Shown in pieces: positions 674-29,186 of a stretch of DNA of 32,129 bases. The notes beneath the pieces are model-generated. The model ran no database searches and was not told the DNA's origin. It was given only the letters and a program-made list of their open reading frames with translations. A program made the position numbers and the translations under genes. Each line of letters begins with the position of its first letter. Position 1 is the stretch's first letter. Origin of the DNA: Alcaligenaceae bacterium (GTDB taxonomy: Bacteria > Pseudomonadota > Gammaproteobacteria > Burkholderiales > Burkholderiaceae_B); assembly GCA_947378965.1 (NCBI GenBank), contig CANCMG010000047.1, positions 1 to 32,129 on the forward strand, in the 5' to 3' direction.

Positions 674-1921
674 ATGTCCGCGATGACTCTGCCTTATCAA
701 CAACTGCCCCACGTTCAGGCCGCTCAAGGTTTTGCACATTTTGAAGGGATTCAAGTACTGGATCTGAGTACTTCGGTCGCAGGCCCCTACGCCACCCAAC
801 TACTAGCCGATTTTGGTGCCACGGTGCTCAAAATCGAAAAACCCGGCACGGGCGACGATGCGCGCCAATGGGGTCCACCCTTTTTGAACGGCGCTTCGCT
901 CTGGTTTTTAAGCGTCAATCGCAATAAACACAGTATGGCCCTCGATATCAGTCAACCTGAAGGCCTCGAGGTCTTGCTATCGTTGCTTGAAACCACTGAC
1001 GTGTTGGTGCTCAACATGACGCCACGCGTTCAAGACAAGTTAGGCTTGAACTTTGCCAAGCTCCAAGAACGGTTTCCGCGCTTGATTCATGCCAGCCTGA
1101 CAGGTTTTGGTTTGACCGGCAGTCGCAGCGATCACCCCTGCTACGACTTGATTGCCGAAGGCTACTCTGGGATCATGGATCTCACAGGCGAAAGCGAAAG
1201 CGATCCTCAAAAAGTAGGTACGCCCGCCGCCGATATGCTGGCTGGACAAGACCTAGCCATGGCCGTGATGGCCGCCATTCATGGCCGCGCTCGCAATGGC
1301 AAGGGTTCTAGCATCGACATCTCGATGCTCGCTACCATGACTCGCTTTACCGCCCCGCGCGTGGTCGCCTATCTAGGGTCTGACGAGGTGCCACGCCGTT
1401 CCGGCGGCAAAGACTCGGTGATCGCAATCTATCAAGTGTTTAATACTGCCGACGCACAGCTCTCACTCGGTCTGGGTAACGATGCGATCTGGAAACGCTT
1501 TTGGCAGGCAGTCGGCGACCCCGCTTTTGCTGAAACGCCCGAGTACGCCGGCAATGCGGGGCGTCGCACCCACCGCCCTGCCATTGTGGCGCGAATCGCA
1601 GAGGTACTGGCAACCAAACCGCGCGATGAATGGCTTGCGCTGTTTGCCAAGAATCGGATCCCTGCAGGGCCTATCAATCGGGTAGACGAGGTCACAAAAG
1701 ATCAAGACCTCTTAACTAAAGAATTTTTTTATAAGAGCGATTCTGGGTATGGCGAGGTGCCTCAGGTGGGGCTAGGCATTACTATCGATGGCAAGCACCA
1801 CGTGCACCGTAAAGCACCGCCCACCCTAGGAGAAGACACCGAGGCGATTTTGCGTGAACGCCTCAAGCTAAGCCCAGCCCAGATCACGCAATTACAGCAG
1901 GCCAAAATCGTGAACGAGTAG
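674..1921 (+). CDS. Class III (CaiB/BaiF-type) CoA-transferase
   Basis: A 415-residue cytoplasmic enzyme of the family III CoA-transferases, which move CoA between carboxylic acids through an aspartyl-CoA intermediate. The N-terminal Rossmann-type motif (FEGIQVLDLSTSVAGPYATQ, residues 23-42), LLADFGATVLKIEKP, and the catalytic-Asp region with D158 in PCYDLIAEGYSG are all visible. Length is normal for the family. An AGGA lies only two bases before ATG 674 and eleven before the in-frame ATG 683, so either start is possible. It is the first gene of the plus-strand acyl-CoA cluster and probably activates the acid substrate or recycles CoA from a pathway product. Its acid donor and acceptor are unknown; racemase activity is less likely, since the racemase-specific His-Asp pair is not obvious here. 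Confidence 0.9.
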   Translation: MSAMTLPYQQLPHVQAAQGFAHFEGIQVLDLSTSVAGPYATQLLADFGATVLKIEKPGTGDDARQWGPPFLNGASLWFLSVNRNKHSMALDISQPEGLEVLLSLLETTDVLVLNMTPRVQDKLGLNFAKLQERFPRLIHASLTGFGLTGSRSDHPCYDLIAEGYSGIMDLTGESESDPQKVGTPAADMLAGQDLAMAVMAAIHGRARNGKGSSIDISMLATMTRFTAPRVVAYLGSDEVPRRSGGKDSVIAIYQVFNTADAQLSLGLGNDAIWKRFWQAVGDPAFAETPEYAGNAGRRTHRPAIVARIAEVLATKPRDEWLALFAKNRIPAGPINRVDEVTKDQDLLTKEFFYKSDSGYGEVPQVGLGITIDGKHHVHRKAPPTLGEDTEAILRERLKLSPAQITQLQQAKIVNE

Positions 1922-2004
1922 CGCAGCCTTTTCGAGCCCAAATGGTGAACATCACGCGTGGCGCCAACTTGATCGAAATTGCAGATTTAGCTGGGTTGTT
2001 TTAG
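1921..2004 (+). pseudogene. Possible remnant of a D-2-hydroxyacid dehydrogenase
   Basis: Directly after the CoA-transferase stop, a 27-codon open stretch ends in TAG at 2002-2004. Its last residues (MVNITRGANLIEIADLAGLF, from ATG 1942) resemble the active-site Arg segment of D-2-hydroxyacid dehydrogenases (consensus LVNxARGxxVxExxLxxAL). Nothing else of such a gene is visible. The match is short and could be chance. The remaining spacer to 2197 shows no other feature. Confidence 0.2.
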
Positions 2005-2197
2005 ATTGGCAGACAGCCTGGGCTAAAAAACCTCCTCGCGCCCGTCTAGCTACAATAACTGGCGTGCGTAGGATAAACAGCGCAAGTAAAATTTGCAAAA
2101 TGAGACTACGCAGAATCAAACACTAACCAAGGCAGCGGTCCCCCGACAATTGCTAGCGCAGTCAATCAAAAAATTACCGACAGACAAAGAGACTTTT

Positions 2198-2977
2198 ATG
2201 ACATTCGACGAAATCCTTTACGAAGAAGACGGCCCAGTCGGCACGATTACGATCAACCGCCCCGAAGACGGCAACATGTTCACGGCAAAAATGTGCCACG
2301 AGATTCGTGACTGTATCAACGAGATCCGTCGCGAAACACGCACTCGTGTCATCGTCTTAACTGGCGCCGGTGATCGGTTCTTTTGCATTGGTGGCCGCAA
2401 AGAAGGCATGGAAGACACTCAGCTTTATGCGGGCGTCTTGCCGACCCTTGAAATGTACGAAAGCATCGACCGTCTGCAAAAACCCGTCATCGCTTCAGTC
2501 AATGGCTTTGCTGTGGGCGGCGGTAACGTCTTGCAAATGGTTTGCGATGTGACCATTGCCTCAGACACAGCAACCTTTAGGCAAGTTGGCCCAATGATGG
2601 GCAGTTTCGACGCCGGCTATGGCACCTGGTATCTTGAAGACTTGGTTGGTAAAAAACGCGCAAAAGAAATGTGGTTTTCAAATCCTAAGATCCCCGCCAA
2701 GCAAGCGCTTGAAATGGGTCTGATCAATCGCGTTGTGCCAGCCGCCGAGTTGCGTGCCGAAACTCGTAAGTGGGCACTCGAAATCGCCGATCGCGGCGCG
2801 TTTGCCCTAGCGTCGGTCAAGGCCGCGTTCAACGCACGCCACGGTGGTGTCAGTGGCCTGTCGCGTATGGCGCATGATCTGCTACTGCGTGGCTATCTTG
2901 ACACCAAAGAACACGATGAGCTTTCAGCATCGTTTGCCGAACGTCGCAAACCTGATTCCTCTACCTTTGGGCACTAA
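2198..2977 (+). CDS. MenB/BadI-like crotonase, probable ring-opening beta-keto-acyl-CoA hydrolase
   Basis: A 259-residue crotonase-fold protein. The start at 2198 (MTFDEILYEE) follows an AAAGAG; the in-frame ATG at 2093 would add 35 unrelated residues. It shows MenB/BadI features rather than those of ordinary hydratases: GGGNVLQMVCD (107-117), where hydratases have a catalytic Glu, then GPMMGSFDAGYG (131-142) and KKRAKEMWF (152-160), plus Y233 in the C-terminal GYLDT segment. In the family MenB closes the naphthoate ring, and BadI hydrolytically opens 2-ketocyclohexanecarboxyl-CoA to pimeloyl-CoA. The Asp of type II MenB after GP is replaced by Met. With no other menaquinone genes and a ligase, dehydrogenase, hydratase and SDR downstream, a BadI-like C-C cleaving role is favoured. 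This is inferred from context; the ring substrate is unknown. Confidence 0.8.
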   Translation: MTFDEILYEEDGPVGTITINRPEDGNMFTAKMCHEIRDCINEIRRETRTRVIVLTGAGDRFFCIGGRKEGMEDTQLYAGVLPTLEMYESIDRLQKPVIASVNGFAVGGGNVLQMVCDVTIASDTATFRQVGPMMGSFDAGYGTWYLEDLVGKKRAKEMWFSNPKIPAKQALEMGLINRVVPAAELRAETRKWALEIADRGAFALASVKAAFNARHGGVSGLSRMAHDLLLRGYLDTKEHDELSASFAERRKPDSSTFGH

Positions 2978-2995
2978 GCTCTTGACTCAACCAAA

Positions 2996-3123
2996 AGGCT
3001 TTCTACGTTAGCCAACAAGACAGGCTCCTTAATTCAGCGAGCAGGCCTTTTAAGAAGTTAGCTAACAAGCTATTTAATTTACCCAGAAGGCCTTCTATTT
3101 TGGCCAACAGGCTTTTTCTATAC
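2996..3123 (+). repeat. Degenerate ~21-26-bp tandem repeats in spacer
   Basis: The spacer after the MenB/BadI-like gene consists of about six decayed units built on AGGC(C/T)TT(C/T)TA followed by TT(A/G)GC(C/T)AACA. Clear unit starts lie near 2996, 3022, 3043, 3088 and 3109. No ORF or terminator is visible. It resembles the other intergenic tandem arrays at 5714 and 10531 in style but not in sequence. Confidence 0.5.
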
Positions 3124-3142
3124 CGCGCTTAGGTTTTCGAAC

Positions 3143-4864
3143 ATGATGTTGACTCTGCACGATCCGCAAAAAACCCGCGAGAACTATGCCTCGGGGGCTT
3201 GGCATGCCGACACCATGTTCGGTCTGTTACAACAACACGCGAAAGCGCGCCCCAATAGCGTTGCCCTGCGCGACTTGTTCACCACGCTGACCTGGTCGCA
3301 AGTCTTACAGGCGGTTGAGCAGCTTGCGCTAGACCTGCACCACGCAGGCTTAAGCGCTGGTGACCGTGTCGCGATCTGGTTGCCTAGCCGTGTTGAAAGC
3401 GTCATTGTATTTATGGCCTGTTCGCGCAACGGCTATGTGTGCTGCCCCTCACTTCACCAAAGCTACACCTCTGGCGAAATCATTACCCTACTCAAGCGCA
3501 TTCGTTGCAAAGCATTTTTTACGACACCCGGCTATGGCTCTGATGCAGCAACTCAACCGATCCAGGCGTTGCTAGACGAAGTGCCCACGTTAATTCGAAC
3601 CTGTTTCTATGGCGCAACCTTTGCTGACCCCACGCAAGCGATTGACCATCAGACGGTTGAGCATCAAACGACTGCGCATCAGACAAGTGACCATGACACG
3701 ACCGAGTTGAAGACGATTGCCGAGGCAATCCCAACACTTGGCTTACCCCCTGCAGCCACCAACCCCGACAAGATTGTTTACTTAGCCTTCACCTCGGGCA
3801 CCACCGGTTTACCCAAAGGGGTGATGCACAGCGACAACACCTTGTTGGCAAACGGCCGCATGATGGTACGTGACTGGCAGCACGATCAACACTCTATTCT
3901 TGTTGCACTCAGCCCTTTAAGCCATCACATTGGTACAGTCGCCATCGAGCAATGGCTTGCTGCGGGCTTGCAACTCGTCATCCATAACTTTGCTGCGGGC
4001 AAGCCTGCGCTTGATTGGATCATTGAAAGCCAAGGCACCTATGTGATGGGTGTGCCGACACACGCGATGGATATTCTTGAAGATGTTCGCCGCCGCGGGC
4101 TGACCGCGATGGGCAGCGTGACGTCGTTTTATATGGCAGGGTCACCGATCCCGCGCGAAGTCGCCGAACAATTTTTACGTATTGGTGTCACGCCACAAAA
4201 CGTCTACGGCATGACCGAAAACGGCTCGCATCAATACACCTTACCCACCGACCCCACCAGCACGATTGTGGCCACGTGCGGGCGTGCCGCGCAAGGCTAC
4301 GAAGTGCGGATCTTTGATGCTGAGCATCCCGATCACGAAGTCGCGCAAGGTCAGGTCGGTGAAATTGGCGGGCGTGGTGGTCTGCTGATGCTTGGCTATT
4401 TTGACGATCAAACCGCGACTGAAAATTCTTTTAACCGCTCAGGCTGGTTTATGAGTGGCGATCTCGGTGTGTTTGATGAACAGGGATGCCTGCAAATCGT
4501 CGGGCGTAAAAAAGATTTGATTATTCGTGGTGGACACAACATCCACCCGGCACGAATCGAAGACTTAACGCATAGACACCCTGACGTTGTGAAGGCGGCC
4601 GTGTTCCCGATTGCTGATGATCGCTTAGGCGAGCGGGTGTGTCTCTCGATTTTGCAGCGAGCGGGCGCAACGATTGACCCTCAGCAGGTTTTACAGCACT
4701 TGCACGAGGTCGGTTTATCAAAATACGACATGCCAGAATATTTTATTGTGCTTGCAGCCTTTCCACTCACAGCAAGCGGTAAGATTTTAAAACGCGAACT
4801 CATTGAGATGACTAAGCGTGGAGACATCAAACCCTCGCCGGTTCGTTGGAGGGCGTCGACCTAA
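3143..4864 (+). CDS. AMP-forming acyl-CoA ligase, cyclohexanecarboxylate-CoA ligase (AliA)-like
   Basis: A 573-residue ANL-superfamily ligase that would form an acyl-adenylate and then an acyl-CoA in the cytoplasm. Visible motifs are the P-loop LAFTSGTTGLPKG (214-226), the A5 motif VYGMTENGS, the A7 region SGDLGVFDEQG, the hinge GRKKDLIIRGG and the C-terminal catalytic lysine in TASGKILK (about K547). The N-terminal NYASGAWHADT pattern and general layout recall cyclohexanecarboxylate- or short-chain-acid ligases. Residues 168-187 form an insertion of four pentapeptide repeats of the type (D/E/A)HQT(V/T/S), encoded by a 15-bp tandem repeat. The start follows only a weak AGG. Its place between the BadI-like and hydratase genes suggests it activates the pathway's starting acid. 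Confidence 0.88.
   Translation: MMLTLHDPQKTRENYASGAWHADTMFGLLQQHAKARPNSVALRDLFTTLTWSQVLQAVEQLALDLHHAGLSAGDRVAIWLPSRVESVIVFMACSRNGYVCCPSLHQSYTSGEIITLLKRIRCKAFFTTPGYGSDAATQPIQALLDEVPTLIRTCFYGATFADPTQAIDHQTVEHQTTAHQTSDHDTTELKTIAEAIPTLGLPPAATNPDKIVYLAFTSGTTGLPKGVMHSDNTLLANGRMMVRDWQHDQHSILVALSPLSHHIGTVAIEQWLAAGLQLVIHNFAAGKPALDWIIESQGTYVMGVPTHAMDILEDVRRRGLTAMGSVTSFYMAGSPIPREVAEQFLRIGVTPQNVYGMTENGSHQYTLPTDPTSTIVATCGRAAQGYEVRIFDAEHPDHEVAQGQVGEIGGRGGLLMLGYFDDQTATENSFNRSGWFMSGDLGVFDEQGCLQIVGRKKDLIIRGGHNIHPARIEDLTHRHPDVVKAAVFPIADDRLGERVCLSILQRAGATIDPQQVLQHLHEVGLSKYDMPEYFIVLAAFPLTASGKILKRELIEMTKRGDIKPSPVRWRAST
3644..3703 (+). repeat. In-frame 15-bp x 4 tandem repeat within the ligase gene
   Basis: Four consecutive 15-bp units encode DHQTV, EHQTT, AHQTS and DHDTT. 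They lengthen a linker before the adenylation P-loop. The units have diverged at several positions, so the array is not recent. It keeps the reading frame. Confidence 0.8.
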
Positions 4865-4903
4865 ACTATTACCACGTTGATCCAACATTAAAGGCAGTCG
4901 AAC

Positions 4904-5686
4904 ATGGCGGTAGAACTTTCAATTGACCAGGGCTTAGCCCATCTGCATCTCAATCGCCCTAAGGCTCTTAACGCCTTAAGCTTTGGGATCTTGCAAGACC
5001 TCAATAATACGCTTACTCAAATTGAACAAGCGATCGAGCAACAACACGTACGCGGCTTAGTGATTACGGGCGAAGGCGAAAAATCTTTCTGTGCCGGGGC
5101 TGACATCCCTGAACTACTTGGACGCACACTCTTGCAACAACACGAGGGCGCACGACTCGGGCAAGAGGTCTTTAATCGACTCGCCGCCTTGCGTGTCCCG
5201 TCCGTCGCAGTGATTCACGGTTACGCCTTTGGTGGGGGCCTTGAGCTTGCGCTGTCATGCACCTTTCGCATTGCGACTGCGCGCGCAAAAATGGGCTTGC
5301 CAGAAATCAAGCTCGGTCTGATCCCAGGGTACGGCGGCACACAGCGCCTGCCTCGTTTGATTGGCGAAGGTCGCGCGCTTGATATCATCCTGTCAGGCCG
5401 TACTGTTGACGCAATCGAGGCCGAGCGCATCGGCCTAGTCACGCGCGTGGTCGAAGAGGGCAATCCCTACACACTTGGCACAGATTTTTTAGCGCCCTAT
5501 TTAAAACATGGCCTCTTGGCTCTTGACATGGCACGCCAAGCGATATCGCGCGGCGTGCAAACAACGCTGGCTGAAGGCCTAAAAATTGAACGTGACCTAT
5601 CAACCTTAATTTTTCAAACAGCTGACGCCACCGAAGGCATGACCGCTTTCACTGAAAAGCGTCCCGCTATCTTTAAGGATCATTAA
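4904..5686 (+). CDS. Enoyl-CoA hydratase (BadK-like position)
   Basis: A 260-residue crotonase with both catalytic glutamates of classical hydratases: E114 in GGGLELALSC and E134 in GLPEIKLGLIPGYGGTQRLP. The oxyanion-hole segments are SFCAGADIPEL and YAFGGG. It should add water to an alpha,beta-unsaturated acyl-CoA. The start at 4904 follows AAAGG about nine bases upstream. It lies 39 bp after the ligase and before an SDR, in the order expected for a cyclohex-1-ene-carboxyl-CoA hydratase in alicyclic acid degradation. The sequence alone does not separate this role from ordinary beta-oxidation. Confidence 0.9.
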   Translation: MAVELSIDQGLAHLHLNRPKALNALSFGILQDLNNTLTQIEQAIEQQHVRGLVITGEGEKSFCAGADIPELLGRTLLQQHEGARLGQEVFNRLAALRVPSVAVIHGYAFGGGLELALSCTFRIATARAKMGLPEIKLGLIPGYGGTQRLPRLIGEGRALDIILSGRTVDAIEAERIGLVTRVVEEGNPYTLGTDFLAPYLKHGLLALDMARQAISRGVQTTLAEGLKIERDLSTLIFQTADATEGMTAFTEKRPAIFKDH

Positions 5687-5713
5687 GTCGTTAACTAAAA
5701 ATTCAATCATGCC

Positions 5714-5811
5714 CGCGACCCACACATCTATCTCAACACACTCGCCATAGCAGCGACCTACTATTTAACTTGCGACAAACTTTCAACACGTGCGACCGAC
5801 TTGTTAACTTA
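5714..5811 (+). repeat. Degenerate ~19-20-bp tandem repeats in spacer
   Basis: Units beginning GCGAC occur at 5715, 5753, 5772 and 5792; the first interval, 38 bp, equals two units. The best-conserved pair reads GCGACCTACTATTTAACTT (5753) and GCGACCGACTTGTTAACTT (5792). No ORF is visible in this 160-bp spacer. Confidence 0.5.
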
Positions 5812-5846
5812 GACCCCTTTCTATTCACGATCACTTCAGGCAAACC

Positions 5847-6605
5847 ATGAGCACTTCAACAAAAAAAGGCTGCATTATCGTCACCGGCGCAAGTCGCGGT
5901 ATTGGCGCTGCCATCGCACTCGGGCTTGCGCAAGCGGGCTACGCGGTCGGCTGTTTGTCGCGCTCGGGCGAAACACCTCAAATTACAGGCGCCACACCAG
6001 AACTGGCAAAGCACTGGTTCAGCGCCAAATGTGATGTCAGCCGCCCTGAACAATTAGCAGCAGCATTTTCTGACATTGCACAGCGCTCCGCTCAGCCTTT
6101 AATTGGTCTCGTCAATAACGCAGGCATTCACTCACAAGATCGTGTGCAAGACATTGCTGAACAAGAGTTCAAAAACGTGATGGATGTCAATGCCTACTCT
6201 GTCTTAGCCGCGAGCCAAACCGTTTACCCTCACCTGCTCGAAAACAAGGGTGGTCTGATCGTTAACATCGGTTCGTTTTATGACAAACTTGGCGTCAAGC
6301 AACACCTAACCTACTGCGCAACAAAAGCCGCGGTGGGCGCAATGACTCGCTGCATGGCAGTCGAATGGGCGCCCAAGGGCATTCGGGTCCTGAACGTTGC
6401 GCCTGGCTACGTGATGACAGATTTCAACCGCGAGATGATTCAAAAAGGCCCCCTTGCTGATTACCTGGCAAAGCGTATTCCTTCAGGAGTCGCCGGCGAA
6501 GCGCAAGATATTGGCAATCTCGTGACATCTCTTTTTGTCTTAAATTCACCTTACATGACAGGCGAAACGATCTACATTGATGGCGCACACGGCATGCTGC
6601 AATAA
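5847..6605 (+). CDS. SDR-family 3-hydroxyacyl-CoA-type dehydrogenase (BadH-like position)
   Basis: A 252-residue classical short-chain dehydrogenase/reductase. It has the cofactor glycine motif TGASRGIG (13-20), NNAG (90-93), and the complete tetrad N115, S143, Y156 and K160 (YCATK). The PGYVMTDFN segment and C-terminal YIDGA are typical. An AGG lies upstream of ATG 5847. In the alicyclic scheme the NAD-dependent SDR BadH oxidises 2-hydroxycyclohexanecarboxyl-CoA to the 2-keto compound, which the BadI-type hydrolase then opens; this gene fits that position next to the hydratase. The substrate is inferred from context, and a general 3-oxoacyl reductase is possible. Confidence 0.88.
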   Translation: MSTSTKKGCIIVTGASRGIGAAIALGLAQAGYAVGCLSRSGETPQITGATPELAKHWFSAKCDVSRPEQLAAAFSDIAQRSAQPLIGLVNNAGIHSQDRVQDIAEQEFKNVMDVNAYSVLAASQTVYPHLLENKGGLIVNIGSFYDKLGVKQHLTYCATKAAVGAMTRCMAVEWAPKGIRVLNVAPGYVMTDFNREMIQKGPLADYLAKRIPSGVAGEAQDIGNLVTSLFVLNSPYMTGETIYIDGAHGMLQ

Positions 6606-6729
6606 TCGTTAGATTGGCCTGCGAAAGACTCGAATACTTGACTGTAGGCAACTCGTACGCCGACACAAGTTACACAACAGAATTTGATGTCTGTCTCATC
6701 CAGACCGGCAAAGCTTCATGAGGTAAAAG

Positions 6730-7905
6730 ATGAACGTATTAGAACGATTAGATGCCGCACAGCCTTGGACGCAAGAAGAAACCATGCTGCTCGATTCGGT
6801 CAAGCAACTTGCCGCCGAAAAAATTGCACCACGCGCTGCCCATTACGACAAGACCGCCGAGTTTCCGTGGGACAACGTAAAAGACATCAATAATCTCGGC
6901 TTGAACGCCATGTTCATCCCTGAGGCCTATGGTGGGGCGCCACTATCTTATGCTTGCTATTTAGCCTGTGTGCGCGAGATCAGCGAAGCTTGTGCCTCAA
7001 CAGGAATCATTTGGGCTACTAACTTTCACGCCATCAAACCCCTAATGGATTTTGGCAACGAAGAACAAAAGCAACGATTGCTGCCTCGAATGGCTGAAGG
7101 CGGTTTAGCGGCCTTGGTCATTACTGAACCCACTGCTGGTTCAGATGCCACGGGGATGAAGACTACCTTCACGCCCGATGGTGATTCGATCATCATGACT
7201 GGCAGCAAAATCTTTATTTCGAATGGCGATGTGTCAGATCTTTATATCGTATTTGGAAAATGGAGCCAAATCGCTGGCGATAAAGAATCGATTTCAGCAG
7301 TCGTACTTGAAAAAGGCACCCCCGGCTTTAGCATCACCGGCACAGAAGACAAAATGGGAACGCGTGCCTCGGGCACGGCCTCGCTCGCGTTTGACCAGGT
7401 CAGCATCCCTCGCGCAAACTTATTATGCGAGCCCGGTGACGGCTTAAAAATATTACTGGCCTCACTGAACAAATCACGTCCAAGCGTTGCAGCCCATGCG
7501 CTAGGTATTGCACGCGCCGCGTTCAACGACGCGATCGCTTACATGAATGATCGCCGTCAGTCTGGCAAACGCCTGCTCGAGTTTCAAGGCTTGCAATTTA
7601 ACGTGGCTGACTTAGCAGCTGAACTTGTCATGGTTGAGTCGTGGTTGTGGCGCGTGGCTGCACTGATTGAATCCAACGCCCCCAATGTCGGCATCGAAGC
7701 CTCGATCTTAAAGTTAAAGGCCACCGATCTCGCCATGCGAATTGCCACCGATGCCGTCCAATTTTTAGGTGGCTACGGGTATTGCAAAGACTATCGCGTC
7801 GAGCGTCTCATGCGCGATGCAAAAATTACTCAAATCTGGGAAGGTACCAATCAAATTCATCGTCAATTGATTGGACGTAGCTTTCTGAAAAAGGAAAAAA
7901 GATGA
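6730..7905 (+). CDS. Acyl-CoA dehydrogenase (AliB-like position)
   Basis: A 391-residue FAD-dependent acyl-CoA dehydrogenase. Both family signatures are present: ALVITEPTAGSDATG in the middle domain and GGYGYCKDYRVERLMRDAK near the C-terminus, followed by the catalytic base E371 in QIWEGTNQI. It would introduce the alpha,beta double bond, passing electrons to an electron-transfer flavoprotein not seen in this window. The start at 6730 has a GAGGTAAAAG ribosome binding region. Its stop overlaps the next start as ATGA (7902-7905), so the 3-hydroxyacyl-CoA dehydrogenase is probably translationally coupled. An alicyclic or branched acyl-CoA substrate is inferred from neighbours. Confidence 0.92.
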   Translation: MNVLERLDAAQPWTQEETMLLDSVKQLAAEKIAPRAAHYDKTAEFPWDNVKDINNLGLNAMFIPEAYGGAPLSYACYLACVREISEACASTGIIWATNFHAIKPLMDFGNEEQKQRLLPRMAEGGLAALVITEPTAGSDATGMKTTFTPDGDSIIMTGSKIFISNGDVSDLYIVFGKWSQIAGDKESISAVVLEKGTPGFSITGTEDKMGTRASGTASLAFDQVSIPRANLLCEPGDGLKILLASLNKSRPSVAAHALGIARAAFNDAIAYMNDRRQSGKRLLEFQGLQFNVADLAAELVMVESWLWRVAALIESNAPNVGIEASILKLKATDLAMRIATDAVQFLGGYGYCKDYRVERLMRDAKITQIWEGTNQIHRQLIGRSFLKKEKR

Positions 7906-8777
7906 ATGCTTCAAAAACGATAGGCATCGTCGGCTGCGGCACGATGGGCACCGGCATCGCGATCGTCGCTGCACGCGCAGGTTTTAAAACACGCATTTAC
8001 GATCTTAAGCCTGAGCCGCTTGAAAACGCACGCAAACAAGCCGCAGCATTTTTAAAAAAATCAGTCGAACGCGGCAAACTCGCTGCAGGCGAAGACGCTC
8101 AGATCATGGCACAGTTTTTAACGACCACTGATGCAAAAGAATTTTCAGATTGCGACTTGGTGATTGAGGCTGTGTTTGAAGACCTCAAGGTTAAGCACTC
8201 GATCTTTAAACAACTGAATGAGATTTGCCCAGCGCACACGATCTTTGCTTCAAACACGTCAACCATCTCTATCACCGAGATCGCCGGTGGCTCGGGGCGC
8301 GCCGATCGTTTTGTCGGCATGCACTTTTGCCTGCCCGCACAATTGATGAAACTGGTTGAAATGTCGCCAGGCATGAATACCTCTGAAGCAACCTTTGACG
8401 CAGCCTGGAAACTGTGTGAAGCGCTCGGACAAAAGCCCGTGCGTACGCGTGACACGCCCGGCTTTATCTTGAATTACTTTTTAATCCCCTTTAATAACGA
8501 CGTGATCAACTTGATAGATCAGGGCGTGGCCGATGCCGTCAATATTGATTTGGCGGTCAAAACTGCACTAGGCTATCCGCTGGGCCCGTTAGAGCTTCTC
8601 GATATGGTGGGCATGGATACCCAGCTCTTACTATGCGATGCCATGCACGGGCTCACCAACGAGCCACGTGCTGCCTGCCCACCACTGGTCAAACGTATGA
8701 TCGGCGCGGGTCGTCTGGGTCGCAAAACGGGTCAAGGGTTTCACACCTACGACAGCAACAAGATTTTTGGAGCCTGA
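7902..8777 (+). CDS. 3-hydroxyacyl-CoA dehydrogenase (3-hydroxybutyryl-CoA dehydrogenase type)
   Basis: A 291-residue NAD-dependent 3-hydroxyacyl-CoA dehydrogenase. The Rossmann motif GIVGCGTMGTGIA (8-20), E89 in VIEAVFED, S117-N118 in SNTST, H141 in GMHFCLPAQLMKLVE and N191 in GFILN are visible. The C-terminal domain ends with YPLGPLELLDMVG and GRKTGQGFHTY. The usual N-P after GMHFF is altered to C-L-P. It overlaps the acyl-CoA dehydrogenase by ATGA and is followed two bases later by a protein resembling the second 3HCDH domain of long PaaH/PaaC-type enzymes. It should perform the third step of beta-oxidation after ring opening or on a linear intermediate. Confidence 0.92.
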   Translation: MNASKTIGIVGCGTMGTGIAIVAARAGFKTRIYDLKPEPLENARKQAAAFLKKSVERGKLAAGEDAQIMAQFLTTTDAKEFSDCDLVIEAVFEDLKVKHSIFKQLNEICPAHTIFASNTSTISITEIAGGSGRADRFVGMHFCLPAQLMKLVEMSPGMNTSEATFDAAWKLCEALGQKPVRTRDTPGFILNYFLIPFNNDVINLIDQGVADAVNIDLAVKTALGYPLGPLELLDMVGMDTQLLLCDAMHGLTNEPRAACPPLVKRMIGAGRLGRKTGQGFHTYDSNKIFGA

Positions 8778-8779
8778 GC

Positions 8780-9445
8780 ATGAGCTATCAGATTATTCAA
8801 GCCGAAGACAGCCGCTCGTTTCCTGAGGCTCACGCATTTTTTGAGCGTGCAAGCAAAGACGGCACCGGCGTGGTGTATATCGGCGCAGATGCCGGCGAGG
8901 CCTATGACGAAGCGCGCGAACAGCACGCAGCTGCAAGCTTTGTTGCCCTTGAACTTGATAACGAATGTCTTGGCGTGCATATCGCAGATGACAACGGCCC
9001 AGTCAACGTGGTTGGCTTTGCGCGCTTTAGATTGGGCGACGATGCGCCCACCCAATTGGTTGAACTGGTGCGCATGCCCTACACCTCTGACGCCGCACTG
9101 GCGGCTGCCAAAGCCGCCTTCACAGAGGCTGGCCTGGTCGTAGCGGTCTGCGGAGATTTTCCTGGTCGCATCCTCAATCGCTTAATTCGGCCCTACTACA
9201 ACGCTGCCTTGCGTCGTTTAGATGAAGGCTTGGCATCGGCGAACGACATGGATATGACCCTGCGCTTGGGCTTAGGGTACCCAGAGGGGCCGATTGCATT
9301 GTTAAATCGCTCGGGTCTGCATCATCACTTTGAAGTCACGCAAGACCTGTACGAACAGCTGGGGCAAGAAGCCTACGCACCTGCTCGGCGTGCGCGCAAT
9401 GCTTGGCTGAAACAATTTCAAGAGAATGACGATGCAGCCTCTTGA
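8780..9445 (+). CDS. 3-hydroxyacyl-CoA dehydrogenase C-terminal-domain-like protein
   Basis: A 221-residue protein starting at ATG 8780, two bases after the preceding stop; a longer in-frame extension to 8633 would lie inside the upstream gene and is rejected. Residues from about 115 carry the 3HCDH C-terminal pattern: CGDFPGRILNRLIRP, then a neutral-helix region, then MTLRLGLGYPEGPIALLNRSG. The N-terminal half (VVYIGADAGEAYDEA, FVALELDNE) resembles the degenerate middle region of about 500-residue PaaH/PaaC-type dehydrogenases and lacks a GxGxxG motif. Together with the upstream gene it looks like a long enzyme divided into two polypeptides. It may assist dimerisation or substrate binding. 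It overlaps the next gene by 14 bases. Confidence 0.7.
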   Translation: MSYQIIQAEDSRSFPEAHAFFERASKDGTGVVYIGADAGEAYDEAREQHAAASFVALELDNECLGVHIADDNGPVNVVGFARFRLGDDAPTQLVELVRMPYTSDAALAAAKAAFTEAGLVVAVCGDFPGRILNRLIRPYYNAALRRLDEGLASANDMDMTLRLGLGYPEGPIALLNRSGLHHHFEVTQDLYEQLGQEAYAPARRARNAWLKQFQENDDAAS

Positions 9446-10538
9446 AGGGGTCAAGGTACTAGACTTTAGTACCTTGTTGCCGGGTCCGATGTGTACGCTG
9501 TTACTGGCAGACGCCGGTGCAGATGTCATCAAAATTGAGCGTAAAGACGGCGATGAGATGCGCTCGTACACACCCAAATTTGGCACAGACAGCGTCAACT
9601 TTGCTTTACTCAATCGCGGTAAAAAATCGATCGTCGCAGACCTTAAGTCACCAGAGACGATCAAACAAATTCAAGCCCTGATTACGCAGGCCGATGTGCT
9701 GGTTGAGCAATTTCGGCCGGGCGTGATGGATCGGCTAGGGCTTGGCTACCAAGCTGTTGCAAAGATCAATCCGCGTCTTGTGTACTGTTCGATCACCGGC
9801 TACGGCCAAACCGGCCCCTACGCGCAAGTTGCCGCGCACGACATGAATTATCAGGCGCAAACAGGCATGGTTGGGCTCAGTGGCGACGCTAACGGCGCGC
9901 CAGGCGTGCCACCTGTTTTAACAGCCGACTTAGCCGGTGGGGCCTACCCTGCCGTAATGAATATTTTATTGGGCTTGCGCAAACGCGACCTTGAGGGCGT
10001 AGGCTGCCATCTTGATATCTCGATGGCTGACAACCTTTTCCCGCTGATGTACTGGGGCCTGGGTAACGGGTGGGCTGCCGGCCAATGGCCGCGCGGTGGC
10101 GATGAACTGGTCACGGGCGGCAGCCCGCGCTATCAAATCTATCAAACCTCAGATCAAAAATACTTAACGGCTGCACCCTTAGAAGACAAGTTTTGGGGCA
10201 ATTTTTTAACGGTGTTGGGGGCAACTGAATTGCAGCATGTCGACAACCCCCCGTTAGTCAAGGCTAGCATCGCCAGGATCATTGCCCAGCACCCCGTCGC
10301 GTACTGGAACGCGCGCTTTGCGGGGCAAGACACTTGCGTGTGTGAGGTGATTGGGCTTGAACAGGCGGTGCAAGATCCGCATTTTCAGGCGCGCGGCGTG
10401 TTTAGTCGCACCATCGCGACCAACTCAGGGAAAACCATACCCGCCCTACCGACCCCCATCAGTGCGGTATTCTTAGCAACTGAACAAAAACAAAATAGCC
10501 CTGAGTTAGGTCAGCACACAACAGACATTTTGAAATAA
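9432..10538 (+). CDS. Alpha-methylacyl-CoA racemase-like class III CoA-transferase
   Basis: The start at 9432 (MQPLEGVKVLDFS) is chosen because AGAGA lies six bases upstream; ATG 9426 is also in frame. The protein has 368 residues. It follows the racemase branch of the CaiB family: AAHDMNYQ supplies a His-Asp pair (H136, D137), LTADLAGGAYP supplies D166, and APLEDKFW supplies E251, matching the His, Asp and Glu described for alpha-methylacyl-CoA racemase from Mycobacterium. GGSPRYQIYQTSDQKYLT is also racemase-like. Such enzymes interconvert R and S 2-methylacyl-CoAs so that the stereospecific dehydrogenase can act. It overlaps the preceding gene by 14 bp. This suggests an alpha-branched or alpha-ring-substituted intermediate. 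CoA-transferase activity remains possible. Confidence 0.82.
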   Translation: MQPLEGVKVLDFSTLLPGPMCTLLLADAGADVIKIERKDGDEMRSYTPKFGTDSVNFALLNRGKKSIVADLKSPETIKQIQALITQADVLVEQFRPGVMDRLGLGYQAVAKINPRLVYCSITGYGQTGPYAQVAAHDMNYQAQTGMVGLSGDANGAPGVPPVLTADLAGGAYPAVMNILLGLRKRDLEGVGCHLDISMADNLFPLMYWGLGNGWAAGQWPRGGDELVTGGSPRYQIYQTSDQKYLTAAPLEDKFWGNFLTVLGATELQHVDNPPLVKASIARIIAQHPVAYWNARFAGQDTCVCEVIGLEQAVQDPHFQARGVFSRTIATNSGKTIPALPTPISAVFLATEQKQNSPELGQHTTDILK

Positions 10539-10637
10539 GCGTGCGCGTGCCCTTTTTTGAAATAAACGTGCACCTACCCTTTTTTTGAAATAAACGTGCG
10601 CCTGCTCTTTTTTGAAATAAGCGTTGGTCTGCCCTTT
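10531..10637 (+). repeat. 27-28-bp tandem repeat, about 3.9 copies, overlapping a stop codon
   Basis: Units start at 10531, 10558, 10586 and 10613 with TGAAATAA(A/G)CGT, then a GC-rich part ending CCC or CTC, then five or six T. The first unit contains the last codons and TAA stop of the racemase-like gene, so the array looks like serial duplication of the 3' end of that gene. Spacing is 27, 28 and 27 bp. No unique spacers separate the units, so it is not CRISPR. Confidence 0.9.
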
Positions 10638-10676
10638 ACAATTGCTGAACAGAATCAAAACAATCGGAGATCTTTA

Positions 10677-11897
10677 ATGAAACTTGCCCGTAACTTAACC
10701 GCGCTCGCGACTCTGGTGGCAAGCGCGCTGCTCGTGACCCCCACTTCTGCACAAAATGCAAAACCTTTTCGCATTGGCGCCCTTGTCGACATGTCTGGAA
10801 TCTATTCCGCACACGGTGGCCCCGGCATGGTGACCGCGGTCAATATGGCCATTGAAGACTTTGGCGGCAAAGTATTAGGCCGCCCGATTGAAGTACTTTC
10901 TGCTAATTATCAAAACAAAGTTGATATCGCTGCCGCGCGTGCGCGCGAGTGGTATGACCGCGACGATGTCAACGTCATCATTGAATCTACCGATTCAGCC
11001 GCCGCACTCGCCTTACAAAAATTAGGCGTTGAAAAAAAGAAAATCACAATCTTTGCTGGCTCTGCCTCATCAGCGCTGACAAATGCCGAGTGCTCACCGT
11101 ATAGCGTTCATTACGTCTATGACACCTATGCGCTGTCAAACGGTACAGGGCTTGCAGTGACGAAGGGCGGTGGTGACTCTTGGTTTTTTATCACCGCTGA
11201 TTATGCGTTTGGTCATGCGCTTGAAAAAGACACCGCAGACGTCGTTGTCAAAAATGGCGGAAAAGTCTTGGGTGCCGTGCGTGCGCCCTTAAATAGCCCA
11301 GACTTTTCATCGTATCTATTGCAAGGCCAGGCTTCCAAAGCGAAGATTATTGGCCTGGCTAACGCCGGATCAGATGCGCAGAACTCCGTGCGTCAAGCCA
11401 GCGAGTTTGGCATTACGCAAGGCGGTCAAAAACTTGTCACGCTGTTGATGTTCTTGCATGATGTAAAAGGCCTTGGCTTAAAGGTTGCGCAAGGCCTTCA
11501 ATTTACGGATGGATTTTATTGGGATTACGACGACGACACCCGCGCCTTTGCCAATCGCTTCTTTGCACGACATAAAGGCATGCCTTCGATGATTCAAGCT
11601 GGCGCCTACTCAGCCACCATGCATTATTTGAAAGCAGTCACTGCTGCCGGCTCAGACAACACTGAAGCCATCATGGCGAAGATGAAAGAGATGCCGATCA
11701 ACGATTTCTTTGCTAAAAACGGCAAGATTCGCGTAGACGGTCGCATGGTGCACGACATGTACTTAGCCGAAGTCAAAAAACCGGCCGACTCAAAAGAAGA
11801 TTGGGATCTACTGAAGATCAACGCCGTGATCCCTGGTGACCAAGCCTTTCGCCCCCTCTCACAAAGCGTCTGCCCTTTAGTTAAGAAACCGTCTTAA
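10677..11897 (+). CDS. LivK-type ABC transporter substrate-binding protein
   Basis: A 406-residue type I periplasmic binding protein of the branched-chain amino acid/amide/aromatic-acid family. ATG 10677 is preceded by GGAGA seven bases upstream. The signal peptide ends near TPTSAQ (residue 26). The mature chain opens with FRIGALVDMSGIYSAHGGPG, typical of lobe 1, followed by VLSANYQNKVDIAAARAREW and IIESTDSAAALALQ. No LivH, LivM, LivG or LivF gene is in the window, so the receptor must use a transporter encoded elsewhere. It follows directly after the acyl-CoA genes and probably captures their substrate. The ligand is unknown. Confidence 0.9.
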   Translation: MKLARNLTALATLVASALLVTPTSAQNAKPFRIGALVDMSGIYSAHGGPGMVTAVNMAIEDFGGKVLGRPIEVLSANYQNKVDIAAARAREWYDRDDVNVIIESTDSAAALALQKLGVEKKKITIFAGSASSALTNAECSPYSVHYVYDTYALSNGTGLAVTKGGGDSWFFITADYAFGHALEKDTADVVVKNGGKVLGAVRAPLNSPDFSSYLLQGQASKAKIIGLANAGSDAQNSVRQASEFGITQGGQKLVTLLMFLHDVKGLGLKVAQGLQFTDGFYWDYDDDTRAFANRFFARHKGMPSMIQAGAYSATMHYLKAVTAAGSDNTEAIMAKMKEMPINDFFAKNGKIRVDGRMVHDMYLAEVKKPADSKEDWDLLKINAVIPGDQAFRPLSQSVCPLVKKPS

Positions 11898-11966
11898 GGC
11901 TTAGTTGCGACTTCCACGGTGCAAGCCATTTGGCTCTGCCGCAAAGAAACAAAGCAACATAACGAA

Positions 11967-11990
11967 CACCCCGCACTTCAATGCGGGGTG
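11967..11990 (+). other. Perfect 9-bp GC-rich hairpin upstream of a Bug gene
   Basis: CACCCCGCA (11967-11975) pairs perfectly with TGCGGGGTG (11982-11990) around the loop CTTCAA. It ends 16 bases before the Bug start codon at 12007 and has no T-run. It is more likely a 3'-end stabiliser or processing element for the upstream receptor transcript, or a partial attenuator, than a full terminator. Confidence 0.75.
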
Positions 11991-12006
11991 TGACAGAGAT
12001 ACCGTC

Positions 12007-12975
12007 ATGAAAAGAATATCGTCTTACTGCTTGATTGCACTCGCAGCGCTGCTGCCAGGTATTGCTGCGAGTGCAGACCCATGGCCAAGTAAACCCATTC
12101 GTATCGTCGTGACTTTTGCTCCCGGCGGTACCTCAGATGTCATGGGCCGCGCGATTGCACCACCCCTGTCAGCGGCTCTAGGGGTGCCGGTTGTTGTTGT
12201 CAACAAACCAGGCGCCAATAGCATTATCGCAACCCAAGAAGTTGCGCGCGCCGCACCAGACGGCAACACCATTGGTTTGTTTATCAGTGCGCACGCCATC
12301 AATCCTTTTATCGCCAAGAGCCTGCCCTACGACTCTAAAAAGGATTTCATTCCTTTGGCAATGCTCGCGCTTATGCCCGGGCTCTTAACAGTGAATCCGA
12401 CTGTTCCAGCCAACAGCGTACAAGAGCTGATCGCACTTGCAAAAGCCAAGCCCGGCACCTTGTCTTACGGCACGCCCGGTGGCTTAACCTCGGGTCAGCT
12501 CTCGATGCAATATCTCATCAAACTGGCAGGGGTCAACATTGTCGAGATCCCCTATAAGGGTGGCGGCCCAGCCTTAGCCGATTTGTTGGCGGGGCATATC
12601 CAGATGCTGATCAATAGCCCCACCTCAACGATTCCGCACGTTAACAGCGGCAAGTTACGTCCATTGGCCACCACCGGTGCAACGCGTCCTCCGGCACTCA
12701 AGGATGTGCCTACCATCGCAGAGTCAGGGTTTCCGGGCTTTGAGCTCTATGAGTGGTACGCCTTGTTTTTACCGGCTGGCACACCCAAAGACATCGTCAC
12801 TCGCTTGCACAAAGAAGTCATGACAGTGATGGCGTCACCCGAGATGGTGAAACGTATTGCTGATATCGGTGCGCAAGGCAGCAATGACACGCCAGAACAG
12901 TTTGCCCAATTCTTAGCGAAAGAAGACAAAGTCTGGGGCGATCTGGTGAAAGCTATCGGGATTCAACCAGAATAA
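12007..12975 (+). CDS. Bug/TctC-family periplasmic binding protein
   Basis: A 322-residue tripartite tricarboxylate transporter receptor. The start at 12007 (MKRISSYCLIALAALLPG) follows AGAGAT; an in-frame ATG at 11905 would put residues before the signal peptide and run through the hairpin. Cleavage is expected after AASA (residue 23). Typical elements are IRIVVTFAPGGTSDVMGR, NKPGANSIIATQ, APDGNTIG, the IPYKGGGPALADLLAGHI segment and the C-terminal FLPAGTPKDIVTRL. It ends two bases before the convergent SDR stop, with no obvious terminator between them. Position suggests it serves the upstream acyl-CoA pathway. Confidence 0.93.
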   Translation: MKRISSYCLIALAALLPGIAASADPWPSKPIRIVVTFAPGGTSDVMGRAIAPPLSAALGVPVVVVNKPGANSIIATQEVARAAPDGNTIGLFISAHAINPFIAKSLPYDSKKDFIPLAMLALMPGLLTVNPTVPANSVQELIALAKAKPGTLSYGTPGGLTSGQLSMQYLIKLAGVNIVEIPYKGGGPALADLLAGHIQMLINSPTSTIPHVNSGKLRPLATTGATRPPALKDVPTIAESGFPGFELYEWYALFLPAGTPKDIVTRLHKEVMTVMASPEMVKRIADIGAQGSNDTPEQFAQFLAKEDKVWGDLVKAIGIQPE

Positions 12976-12977: not shown

Positions 12978-13745
12978 TCACTGCCGAAACCGTGTCCCAG
13001 CATCAATCGAAATCACATCGCCACTGATGTATTTTGACATGGCGTCTGAAGCAAAAAAGACCGCAAGATTTGCAATCTCTTCAGGCGTCCCCATCCGACC
13101 ATAGGGCAGGTTCGCCATGACTTTAGCGTAAGCCTGTCGATCGGTATCGTTTCGAGGATGCAGCAGGCTCTCGGTGCGAGGGGTATGGATTAACCCCGGA
13201 TTGATCCCAACTACGCGCACTCCATGATTGACCGTCTCTGAACCAAACGCCTTAGTAAAGGCAATCAGAGCGGCGTTGGCAACCGACGTGCCAATCGAGT
13301 TGGCATTGAGTCGCTCGCCTGCGATACCAATAATGTTGATCATCACACCCGCCTTGCGCGCGATCATGTGCGGATATAGAGCGCGGCTCAGCATCATGGT
13401 TGACATCACCTTGCCTTCGAAACCATCGCGAAAATCAACCGGGTCGATGGTCAGCAAGCTGCCGCGCCCAATCGCGCCCGCCGAATTAATCAAGATCTCG
13501 GTCTCGGGGTAAGCCGCAGCAAGCTCCTCGGCCGCGCCTGGCTCGGATAAATTCACCGACTCGATCAAGACCTCAACGGGATGTTGCGCTTGAATTTGAC
13601 GGCGAGCCTCTTCTAGGGACACCAGGTCACGAGCAACCAGCCTTAACGAACAGCCCTCTGCTGCCAACGCCTTCGCAATCGCGAAACCGATTCCTTTTGA
13701 GCCGCCCGTCACCAGGGCAATCTTTCCTTTGAGCTGATAGTCCAT
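12978..13745 (-). CDS. SDR-family protein without the classical catalytic tetrad
   Basis: A 255-residue short-chain dehydrogenase-like protein with an intact dinucleotide motif TGGSKGIG (13-20) and NSAG in place of NNAG. The four usual catalytic positions differ: K112 stands for Asn, G140 for Ser, and T153 and N157 for the Tyr and Lys of YxxxK (segment IGTSVANAALIAFTK). The rest, including NPGLIHTPRT and YISGDVISIDAG, is normal. From memory, a subfamily annotated only as short-chain dehydrogenase shares this KV/IG-AGE/GNAAL pattern, so this may be a conserved variant rather than decay. It could still bind NAD(P). It is the only minus-strand gene between two Bug genes. Function unknown. Confidence 0.85.
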   Translation of the reverse strand: MDYQLKGKIALVTGGSKGIGFAIAKALAAEGCSLRLVARDLVSLEEARRQIQAQHPVEVLIESVNLSEPGAAEELAAAYPETEILINSAGAIGRGSLLTIDPVDFRDGFEGKVMSTMMLSRALYPHMIARKAGVMINIIGIAGERLNANSIGTSVANAALIAFTKAFGSETVNHGVRVVGINPGLIHTPRTESLLHPRNDTDRQAYAKVMANLPYGRMGTPEEIANLAVFFASDAMSKYISGDVISIDAGTRFRQ

Positions 13746-13792: not shown

Positions 13793-13845
13793 GATGTGTC
13801 TGCCTATCAGATGTGACTGCGACTCATAGGTGTCTGCGAATCATA
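13793..13845. repeat. Three degenerate 17-19-bp units in a divergent spacer
   Basis: Units at 13793, 13810 and 13829 share G(A/G)TGTG(T)CTGC and end in (C)ATCA or TCATA. They lie between the divergent SDR and Bug genes. Their position could suit regulator binding, or they may be decayed tandem duplications like those elsewhere in the window. Confidence 0.4.
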
Positions 13846-13932
13846 ACAATAGACCCACCATTACCCCAACTTGCGCCGCACTCGCTAGACATCGAGGCGG
13901 CTCACCCCTCTCAGACCTGACGCAGGTCTCGC

Positions 13933-13961
13933 TTGCTGTTACGGGAGCTTGCCGCCATAAT
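13933..13961 (+). promoter_or_regulatory. Candidate sigma-70 promoter for the Bug gene at 14037
   Basis: TTGCTG (13933-13938) and CATAAT (13956-13961) are separated by 17 bp. Transcription would start near 13968, giving a leader of about 70 nt. No experimental support is available. Confidence 0.35.
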
Positions 13962-14036
13962 ATTCAACAATCAGCCTGCCGGCCAATCGTCGGGCAACAC
14001 CACGCCAATTCAATTCTCATAACAAGGCCCTGTTTT

Positions 14037-15017
14037 ATGCCCTCGCTAAAAGTCATCGCATTGAGTTTGCTTGCCGTATCGGTCTTCAATGCCTCTGGCA
14101 TTCAAGCGCAGGTGATCGACGGCTACCCGACGCAACCCATTAAGCTCGTGGTGCCGTTTCCACCAGGTGGGGCCTCTGACATCATTGCGCGCATTGTCGG
14201 GCAACGCTTGGCTGAACACATGAAAGCCACCGTCGTCATTGAAAATAAAGCGGGTGCCAATGGCAACATCGCCGCTGAGTATGTGGTGCGCTCAAAACCT
14301 GATGGGTATACCTTGATTTACAACAGTTCATCTGTGGCGTTAAGCCCTGCGCTGTATAAAAACTTAAGCTTTGATGTGCAAAAAGATTTGGCGCCAGTGA
14401 TTCTCACTACTGTTGTCCCGATGCTGCTCAATGTCAACAACTCGGTACCTGCCACCAATTTCAAAGAGTTTGTCGCACTGCTCAAAGCCAAGCCCGATTC
14501 GCTCTCATATGGCTCGGCAGGGGTTGGCAACATCACCCACCTGGCACCTTTTTTAGTCTTAGAGCAATTAGGCTTAGTCGCAAACCACGTGCCGTATAAA
14601 GGCAGTGGCCCCGCAATGATTGGTTTAGTCGGTGGCGAAATTCAGTTTGATATGCAACCGATTTCAGTCGGTTTAGCCTACGCAAAAGAAGGGCGCGTGC
14701 GGCCTATAGCGGTATCAACTCTGGTGCGCTCGCCCGCGCTTCCTAATGTGCCGACGCTTGACGAAAGCGGCCTAAAGGGCTTCGAGCTGGGCGCCTGGCA
14801 AGCCATCATGGTGCCCGCCAAAACGCCGCCAGCGATCATCAAGCGCTTAAACACAGATATCATGGCGGTTCTCATGAACCCCGACACCAAAGAAAAGTTG
14901 CTGTCACAGGGGGCTCAAGTCTTAGGATCAACACCCGAAGAATATGGCACCTACCTCGCAAGCGAGGTCAAGCGCTGGGATGCCGTTGTCAAGAGCAGCA
15001 AAACCGAGCCGCAGTAA
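14037..15017 (+). CDS. Bug/TctC-family periplasmic binding protein
   Basis: A 326-residue solute receptor. The start at 14037 gives a clean signal peptide (MPSLKVIALSLLAVSVFNAS, cleaved near IQAQ, residue 25); longer in-frame starts to 13830 would place a polar stretch first. Hallmarks are IKLVVPFPPGGASDIIAR, ENKAGANGNIAAEYV, KPDGYTL, HVPYKGSGPAMIGLVGGEI and MVPAKTPPAIIKRLN. No clear Shine-Dalgarno precedes the ATG. It is divergent from the unusual SDR, with a candidate promoter about 75 bp upstream. TctA/TctB membrane partners are absent. Ligand unknown. Confidence 0.92.
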   Translation: MPSLKVIALSLLAVSVFNASGIQAQVIDGYPTQPIKLVVPFPPGGASDIIARIVGQRLAEHMKATVVIENKAGANGNIAAEYVVRSKPDGYTLIYNSSSVALSPALYKNLSFDVQKDLAPVILTTVVPMLLNVNNSVPATNFKEFVALLKAKPDSLSYGSAGVGNITHLAPFLVLEQLGLVANHVPYKGSGPAMIGLVGGEIQFDMQPISVGLAYAKEGRVRPIAVSTLVRSPALPNVPTLDESGLKGFELGAWQAIMVPAKTPPAIIKRLNTDIMAVLMNPDTKEKLLSQGAQVLGSTPEEYGTYLASEVKRWDAVVKSSKTEPQ

Positions 15018-27724: not shown

Positions 27725-27746
27725 ACTAAGCGTAAACCATCAGGTA

Positions 27747-27782
27747 CTTGGCACTGACTAACGATTAGCCGCTTGGCACTGA
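27747..27782 (+). repeat. Two copies of an 11-bp direct repeat, 25 bp apart
   Basis: CTTGGCACTGA occurs at 27747-27757 and 27772-27782 in the spacer between the SucD-like gene and the acyl-CoA dehydrogenase gene. It may be an operator pair or another decayed tandem duplication. Confidence 0.45.
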
Positions 27783-27921
27783 TTGTAGTGCTGAGCATCT
27801 GAGACTTGTTAGGATAATCATTCAACGGCGCCGTTGCGCATTGAACACGTCGTGCAGTAACAAGCCTCTTATTTTAAAGCGAGGCAAAAATAACGATCTA
27901 CCTCATCAAGGATTGAGCAGC

Positions 27922-29088: not shown

Positions 29089-29120
29089 ACGTCGTTAACC
29101 CACAGATTCAGGCTTGCCAA

Positions 29121-29150: not shown

Positions 29151-29186
29151 CTGATCCGAACACATTCCTCTTATAAAGAGCAACCG

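Follow-up and report, generated by a model that had tools for sequence, protein, structure and literature searches.

What is broken down by a run of nine catabolic genes at the start of a contig from an Alcaligenaceae bacterium, and is this run a form of the bad-ali system, in which cyclohexanecarboxylate is turned into pimeloyl-coenzyme A (CoA)? The contig (CANCMG010000047.1 of GenBank assembly GCA_947378965.1) is 32,129 nucleotides long, and this whole stretch is called the window here. Its source is a metagenome-assembled genome (MAG) of 4.5 Mb in 189 contigs with a completeness of 96%. The MAG shares a genus with Zwartia hollandica and Jezberella montanilacus, which places the host in the Burkholderiales and agrees with the betaproteobacterium supposed in a first-pass annotation made from the letters alone; the host is a freshwater-type bacterium. 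That annotation had equated the cluster with AliA, AliB, BadK, BadH and BadI. The listing of open reading frames (ORFs) and the NCBIfam and Pfam models bear out its genes and families as nine tandem genes on the forward strand, spanning 674-10538. The orphan C-terminal half at 8777-9445 had been overlooked. The genes after the crotonase lie on the same strand as described, in the order ligase, hydratase, short-chain dehydrogenase, acyl-CoA dehydrogenase and not in the order first given. The nine genes are as follows.

674-1921, forward: CoA-transferase family III protein of the transferase type (CoAT1; PF02515)
2198-2977, forward: crotonase of the MenB/BadI type in a clade of its own, proposed as a C-C hydrolase
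3143-4864, forward: AMP-forming acyl-CoA ligase (PF00501/PF13193)
4904-5686, forward: enoyl-CoA hydratase with both hydratase glutamates kept (PF00378)
5847-6605, forward: short-chain dehydrogenase/reductase (SDR), candidate beta-hydroxyacyl-CoA dehydrogenase (PF13561/PF00106)
6730-7905, forward: acyl-CoA dehydrogenase, acryloyl-CoA reductase/short-chain-like (PF00441, PF02770, PF02771; best NCBIfam model AcrC, 344 bits, below its cut-off)
7902-8777, forward: 3-hydroxyacyl-CoA dehydrogenase (HCDH), N-terminal part of a split PaaH-type enzyme (PF02737, PF00725)
8777-9445, forward: C-terminal half of the PaaH-type dehydrogenase (PF00725; matches PRK08268 positions 327-494)
9426-10538, forward: alpha-methylacyl-CoA racemase-like CoA-transferase family III protein (CoAT2)

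Judged from sequence, and with a confidence slightly short of even, we propose that these genes encode a CoA-dependent catabolic pathway that runs parallel to bad-ali, is not orthologous with it, and likely acts on a methyl-substituted alicyclic acid. The protein on which this proposal turns is the crotonase. Its ATG at 2198 sits within a longer frame that opens with TTG at 2093. As first annotated, it belongs to the MenB/BadI superfamily and lies in a CoA-ligase/beta-oxidation cluster. It stays below all equivalog cut-offs, scoring 226 bits against 467.6 for badI (TIGR03210), 218 against 342.7 for menB and 249.5 against 380 for PRK07396. A clade member from Rhodococcus and one from Celeribacter likewise fall below these cut-offs. 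The controls exceed them, with 547 bits for the BadI of Paraburkholderia aromaticivorans plasmid pBN3 and 445 and 524 bits for one MenB protein of Anoxybacillus. Taken alone, the badI cut-off is a strict measure: many BadI-type relatives score 390-465 bits and fall short of it as well.

A tree was made from 85 strand-corrected translations: 29 of the crotonase clade, 32 BadI-type, 18 MenB and six paralogous crotonases (L161, L162 and the long paralogues L002 and L008 were left out). The BadI-type rows were set by the analyst. Five of the 32 (L155-L159) exceed the badI cut-off and others score 404-465 bits; 12 from the group with 42-46% identity were assigned by tree position. Of the MenB rows, three carry a menB annotation, and for the other 15 the assignment followed from score and tree position. 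The crotonase clade has a support of 100/100, and the paralogues split off with 100/100. In the best tree the clade stands beside MenB (97/99) and the BadI-type rows are not monophyletic. Neither a clade joined to BadI (approximately unbiased test, p-AU 0.268) nor BadI joined to MenB (p-AU 0.281) was rejected, and for this reason only the status of a separate clade is claimed. Mean identities within this set are 0.41 from the clade to BadI-type proteins, 0.40 to MenB and 0.29 to the paralogous crotonases, with 0.52 between BadI-type and MenB. Among the 29 clade sequences, all proteobacterial, 124 of 259 columns are invariant. By its sequence the crotonase is thus neither BadI nor MenB but a member of its own clade; it lies outside true MenB and ordinary hydratases, as the first-pass annotation required, and outside BadI as well.

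In E. coli MenB numbering, G86, G133, Q154, G156, S161, D163 and W184 are invariant in all 29 clade sequences, all 32 BadI-type and all 18 MenB. These and the other conserved crotonase/MenB residues, including Arg91, Tyr97, Thr254 and Tyr258, we take to have catalytic roles. Arg91, Tyr97 and Thr254 are present in 18/18 MenB and missing in 29/29 of the clade, and they are missing in the BadI-type proteins too. At position 258 a Tyr is found in every BadI-type and MenB sequence sampled, whereas 27 of the 29 clade sequences have Leu there and two have Tyr; to locate this position in the clade, residues were counted backwards from a Phe that is conserved. The residue preceding position 258 is Tyr in all 29, and HMMER pairs this earlier Tyr with MenB Tyr258 through a one-residue gap, so a shifted, functional Tyr is possible. 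MenB is the best solved-structure match both by sequence and by Foldseek, and shares the Ser, Asp, Gln, Trp and Gly positions. The structure model itself (mean predicted local distance difference test score, pLDDT, 75; below 50 at 64-81 and 133-141, including Ser136 and Asp138) adds little, since other crotonases closely follow the MenB chains in Foldseek. A menaquinone role was considered and rejected, given the missed model cut-offs; it is unlikely because the three MenB residues are missing throughout the clade and no MenD was found above the cut-off in the host genome, a MAG of the completeness given above.

The two family III proteins appear to do different things. The best solved-structure matches of CoAT2 are alpha-methylacyl-CoA racemases (MCR/AMACR), and its His138, Asp168 and Glu253 are kept in 47 of 47 orthologues (at least 46% identity and 80% coverage). 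They align with the residues of the M. tuberculosis MCR that we take to be His126, Asp156 and Glu241. CoAT2 therefore carries the AMACR catalytic set, which suggests a racemase, as had been predicted at first pass. CoAT1 best matches solved structures of CoA-transferases; the Asp is present in 60 of 60 orthologues (at least 48% identity and 80% coverage), and Tyr occupies the place of the racemase His in all 60. It looks like a true CoA-transferase. A benzylsuccinate-type (BbsEF) pathway was rejected, as both family III proteins match benzylsuccinate CoA-transferase weakly and lie apart, and so was a carnitine (Cai) pathway, for which the CaiB and CaiA scores are far below their cut-offs.

The remaining enzymes were compared with the annotated aliA/aliB/badH/badI cluster of pBN3. 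The ligase is 29%, the acyl-CoA dehydrogenase 28% and the SDR 24% identical to their counterparts, the hydratase 38% to the hydratase there and the crotonase 45% to BadI. The ligase reaches 239 of 792 bits with the NCBIfam AliA model and the acyl-CoA dehydrogenase 152 of 575 with AliB; BadH is not among the best 25 of 230 NCBIfam matches listed. Of 66 orthologues of the acyl-CoA dehydrogenase, 65 have Glu371 where it is expected and one is unresolved. The HCDH and the following half both match a single gene of about 500 codons in Celeribacter (L146, 20057-21571) and Salipiger (L152, 23043-24542), with 55-57% identity for the HCDH and 48-50% for the C-terminal half. Since the halves are fused there, 7902-9445 can be taken as a split PaaH-type enzyme. 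The equivalence of the set with AliA, AliB, BadH and BadI, which the first-pass annotation had asserted, is thus not upheld. Relatives of the ligase (44-49% identity) on two plasmid loci (L190 and L191) stand with a molybdenum hydroxylase, an amidase/asparaginase-type gene and an MDR reductase, and no clade crotonase is annotated nearby; the molybdenum-hydroxylase setting gives a hint of ring acids only. Isonicotinate was pursued as a substrate lead and dropped, no fitting paper having been found.

Is the cluster a chance assembly? Its distribution argues that it is not. Among 151 genomes of the host's family, nine have a clade crotonase (at least 69% identity), 11 have a relative with 42-46% identity, and one has both. 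A scan of genome contigs yielded 166 candidate stretches, in which 158 crotonase relatives were found. The 80 best of these 158 are all at least 78% identical; many are from MAGs, and Achromobacter, Azospirillum, Burkholderia, Variovorax, Novosphingobium, Mesorhizobium, Roseovarius and Solimonas are represented. In a plasmid collection, 79 records match the crotonase at E 1e-40, 12 of them with at least 60% identity, and relatives with 55-57% identity occur on Rhodococcus and Streptomyces plasmids. The gene set recurs in Alpha-, Beta- and Gammaproteobacteria. For synteny, 94 loci including near-duplicates were examined, of which 69 extend 1.3 kb or more upstream of the crotonase and 7.2 kb or more downstream of it. 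All nine genes are found together in 34 of these 69 (30 of 65 when the close genus is set aside), a recurrence that speaks against chance. Reduced forms consist of crotonase, ligase and SDR only (three loci) or of the crotonase alone (three loci). When the loci of the best 80 are taken with those that end at contig ends, 27 have all nine genes at 70% coverage, 21 of them outside the genus. In each of these 21 loci the crotonase ranks first in similarity among the nine proteins (mean 80.5%, against 50-69% for the others). As the neighbours diverged while synteny was kept, constraint seems a better explanation than recent transfer. Several MAG titles (Candidatus Methylopumilus, Bordetella parapertussis, Klebsiella pneumoniae) clash with the Zwartia-type/Burkholderiales clusters that they carry (L063, L066, L068, L074, L080) and look like mislabelled bins.

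The clade crotonase can also stand in one genome with a BadI-type enzyme. One Verticiella genome (G050) has two clade copies and one copy that is BadI-type by the tree (L029). A second genome of that genus (G152), whose clade copy ends at a contig end, and one from another family (G170) have one of each; their BadI-type copies score 404 and 460 bits, just below the badI cut-off. These are three of seven genomes picked for BadI-type genes or close kinship, a sample from which no frequency can be read. The two types therefore do not simply replace each other.

Genes around the cluster were surveyed in 76 loci. The commonest extra families are a sigma-54 activator (29 loci), a quinone reductase of the MDR type (24) and a further 3-hydroxyacyl-CoA dehydrogenase (19), and transporters also occur; none is diagnostic, and the attempt to derive the substrate from neighbouring genes was given up. 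Upstream of the Cupriavidus basilensis cluster (L147, 11907-14765) lie a DUF4286 protein, a type II dehydroquinase-like protein and two SDRs. Many of the 76 loci are shortened by contig ends, and three of the sigma-54 activator proteins were checked with family models. In six plasmid loci with annotation, the activator gene and CoAT1 are arranged divergently. The analyst chose 17 loci for a promoter comparison, and in 14 of them (all but L093, L094 and L138) the 360 bases upstream of CoAT1 contain a -24/-12 element, against a background in the same loci of 0.018 per 360 bases, CoAT1 matches included. An rpoN-like gene for the sigma-54 factor itself is found near the cluster in four Rhodobacteraceae-type loci (L138, 5252-6685; L127; L129; L135), with one protein checked against Pfam. 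This regulation differs from that of bad-ali clusters, for which PMC9795900 gives a MarR regulator (BadR) in Gram-negative and a TetR-like regulator in Gram-positive bacteria, with a CAAN4TTG operator. That motif has 26 matches in the window against 15.9 expected, with none in 577-673. No MarR regulator was matched among the 25 distinct ORFs that were scanned against family models. The window holds 45 listed ORFs of at least 100 amino acids, and the 20 others mostly overlap scanned ones; two that were outside the scan are an AMP-ligase-like ORF by blastp (30226-31773, reverse) and 31770-32129 (reverse).

From the chemistry of the families, the following route may be drawn. The ligase would convert an imported acid to its CoA thioester, and the acyl-CoA dehydrogenase would form the 2-enoyl-CoA. 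The hydratase, its glutamates being intact, would add water, and the SDR and/or the split PaaH-type dehydrogenase would oxidize the alcohol to a beta-keto acyl-CoA. The crotonase would then hydrolyse the C-C bond beside the ketone, which opens a ring if ketone and thioester share one. CoAT1 may re-activate the free carboxylate of the product, while the racemase may epimerize an alpha-methyl or alpha-alkyl centre; these two steps would allow further beta-oxidation by thiolases from elsewhere. The racemase suggests that such a centre is present, and a methyl-substituted alicyclic acid is the most likely substrate class. A bolder form of the proposal is possible rather than probable: MenB and BadI would be joined by the crotonase as a third lineage of Claisen-type C-C hydrolases, one in which the active-site Tyr has been relocated. 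The crotonase would form the core of an aerobic pathway, so far unrecognised as such, that acts on a methyl-substituted alicyclic acid, is widespread and horizontally mobile, and is often under sigma-54 control.

Several observations weigh against a ring-opening pathway of this kind. The ligase, the acyl-CoA dehydrogenase, the hydratase and the dehydrogenases are generic beta-oxidation types; only the crotonase, by analogy with its relatives, suggests a ring. Ring hydrolysis may not be retained in that protein, since Tyr258 is replaced by Leu in most of the clade. The window contains no oxygenase or terpene gene that would mark the substrate. Among the 65 loci outside the close genus, neither the SDR nor the HCDH was detected in seven, and no more than one core gene besides the crotonase was detected in five, under thresholds that miss distant orthologues (the annotation of a Streptomyces locus, for example, lists most of these gene types). 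Finally, no -24/-12 match lies upstream of CoAT1 in the window, where the sole match is at 26953; in the close relatives (ten loci, two duplicate pairs) a match occurs in four, each time away from CoAT1.

The alternative that fares best has no ring at all. The crotonase would hydrolyse a beta-keto thioester derived from an open-chain acid with branches and so take the place of thiolase, a version that we hold to be rather unlikely. It would account for the lack of a match to thiolase families among the scanned ORFs, an absence that the first-pass annotation had stressed and that stands for those ORFs. A racemase and a family III CoA-transferase would suit methyl-branched acids, and the MenB/BadI residues would suit C-C cleavage of beta-keto thioesters in general. 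The absence has little weight as an argument, since thiolase genes are found near several homologous clusters, where they would be redundant in an acyclic route. The known relatives also point to rings: according to PMC5380842, BadI and EchA20 are ring-opening enzymes and MenB is a ring-closing one. EchA20 is described there as the HIEC-CoA hydrolase of steroid degradation, which clusters with MenB, opens a ring by reverse Dieckmann chemistry and shares about 28% identity with MenB and 24% with BadI. It is likened to the crotonase by description, EchA20 itself being outside the tree and the comparisons, and no ipdAB-type CoA-transferase was matched among the scanned ORFs.

That the crotonase is an unusual enoyl-CoA hydratase/isomerase of an ordinary fatty-acid beta-oxidation operon is a good deal harder to credit. 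The generic neighbours would fit, and plasmid records label the protein 'enoyl-CoA hydratase-related protein'. Two glutamates are catalytic in crotonase-type enoyl-CoA hydratases, and in all 29 clade sequences these positions are Val111 and Gly131; the operon already holds a hydratase with both glutamates, and the crotonase groups with MenB and the BadI-type proteins, apart from the six paralogues. A divergent but true set of aliA, aliB, badK, badH and badI is very improbable: the enzyme classes are the same, and the crotonase and hydratase identities to pBN3 are 45% and 38%, but the model cut-offs are missed, AliA, AliB and BadH are 24-29% identical, the crotonase forms a separate clade without the shared Tyr, its relatives have a sigma-54 activator where published Gram-negative clusters have BadR (PMC9795900), and it occurs with BadI-type enzymes in three genomes. 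The first-pass reading is thus partly supported: superfamily and logic were right, orthology was wrong.

Compared with the bad-ali genes of Rhodopseudomonas palustris and Aromatoleum sp. CIB, the parallel pathway proposed here has in common the ligase, acyl-CoA dehydrogenase, hydratase, SDR and MenB-type crotonase, and the logic of beta-oxidation followed by hydrolytic C-C cleavage. It differs in that the set is non-orthologous by cut-off, identity and tree, and in having a CoA-transferase, a racemase and a split PaaH-type dehydrogenase in addition. The mrc genes of Castellaniella defragrans 65Phen (MrcD, MrcE, MrcF) are alike in their Burkholderiales host and in the proposed ring hydrolysis of a substituted cyclohexane-carboxyl-CoA. 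MrcE is close to BadI (88% identical to one of Azoarcus sp. KH32C according to PMC4109377), whereas the clade averages 41% to BadI-type sequences. No description of the nine-gene set was found in literature listings, subscription papers aside, or in the passages covered of PMC4109377, PMC12583861, PMC4547698, PMC5380842, PMC9795900 and PMC5906575. As predicted from its genes, the cluster is a widespread variant of beta-oxidation-type C-C hydrolysis, uncharacterised as a pathway. MenB-like crotonases near beta-oxidation genes are readily called badI, and this clade shows that such calls can err. For a pathway that occurs in many Proteobacteria, the operon is a well-defined unit that lends itself to testing, and the constraint on the crotonase, together with its coexistence with BadI-type enzymes in three genomes, makes a clean case for assigning a new function.

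Three further genes follow the cluster.

10596-11897, forward: ABC transporter substrate-binding protein (Peripla_BP_6, PF13458), near the cluster in a number of relatives by synteny
11905-12975, forward: TctC (Bug) receptor (PF03401), adjoining the cluster in close relatives
12978-13745, reverse: SDR (NF004779, 266 bits against a cut-off of 261), adjoining the cluster in close relatives

A scan of the window for promoters and terminators gave background levels only. The gap between crotonase and ligase contains imperfect direct repeats of 33-36 nucleotides (2982-3118). A second acyl-CoA module at 25671-30233 comprises a split ATP-grasp/CoA-ligase pair, an acyl-CoA dehydrogenase and a TctC receptor. 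Matches to the TctC (Bug) receptor family are found in five genes within the 32 kb, at 1-576, 11905-12975, 13830-15017, 20492-21481 and 29187-30233.

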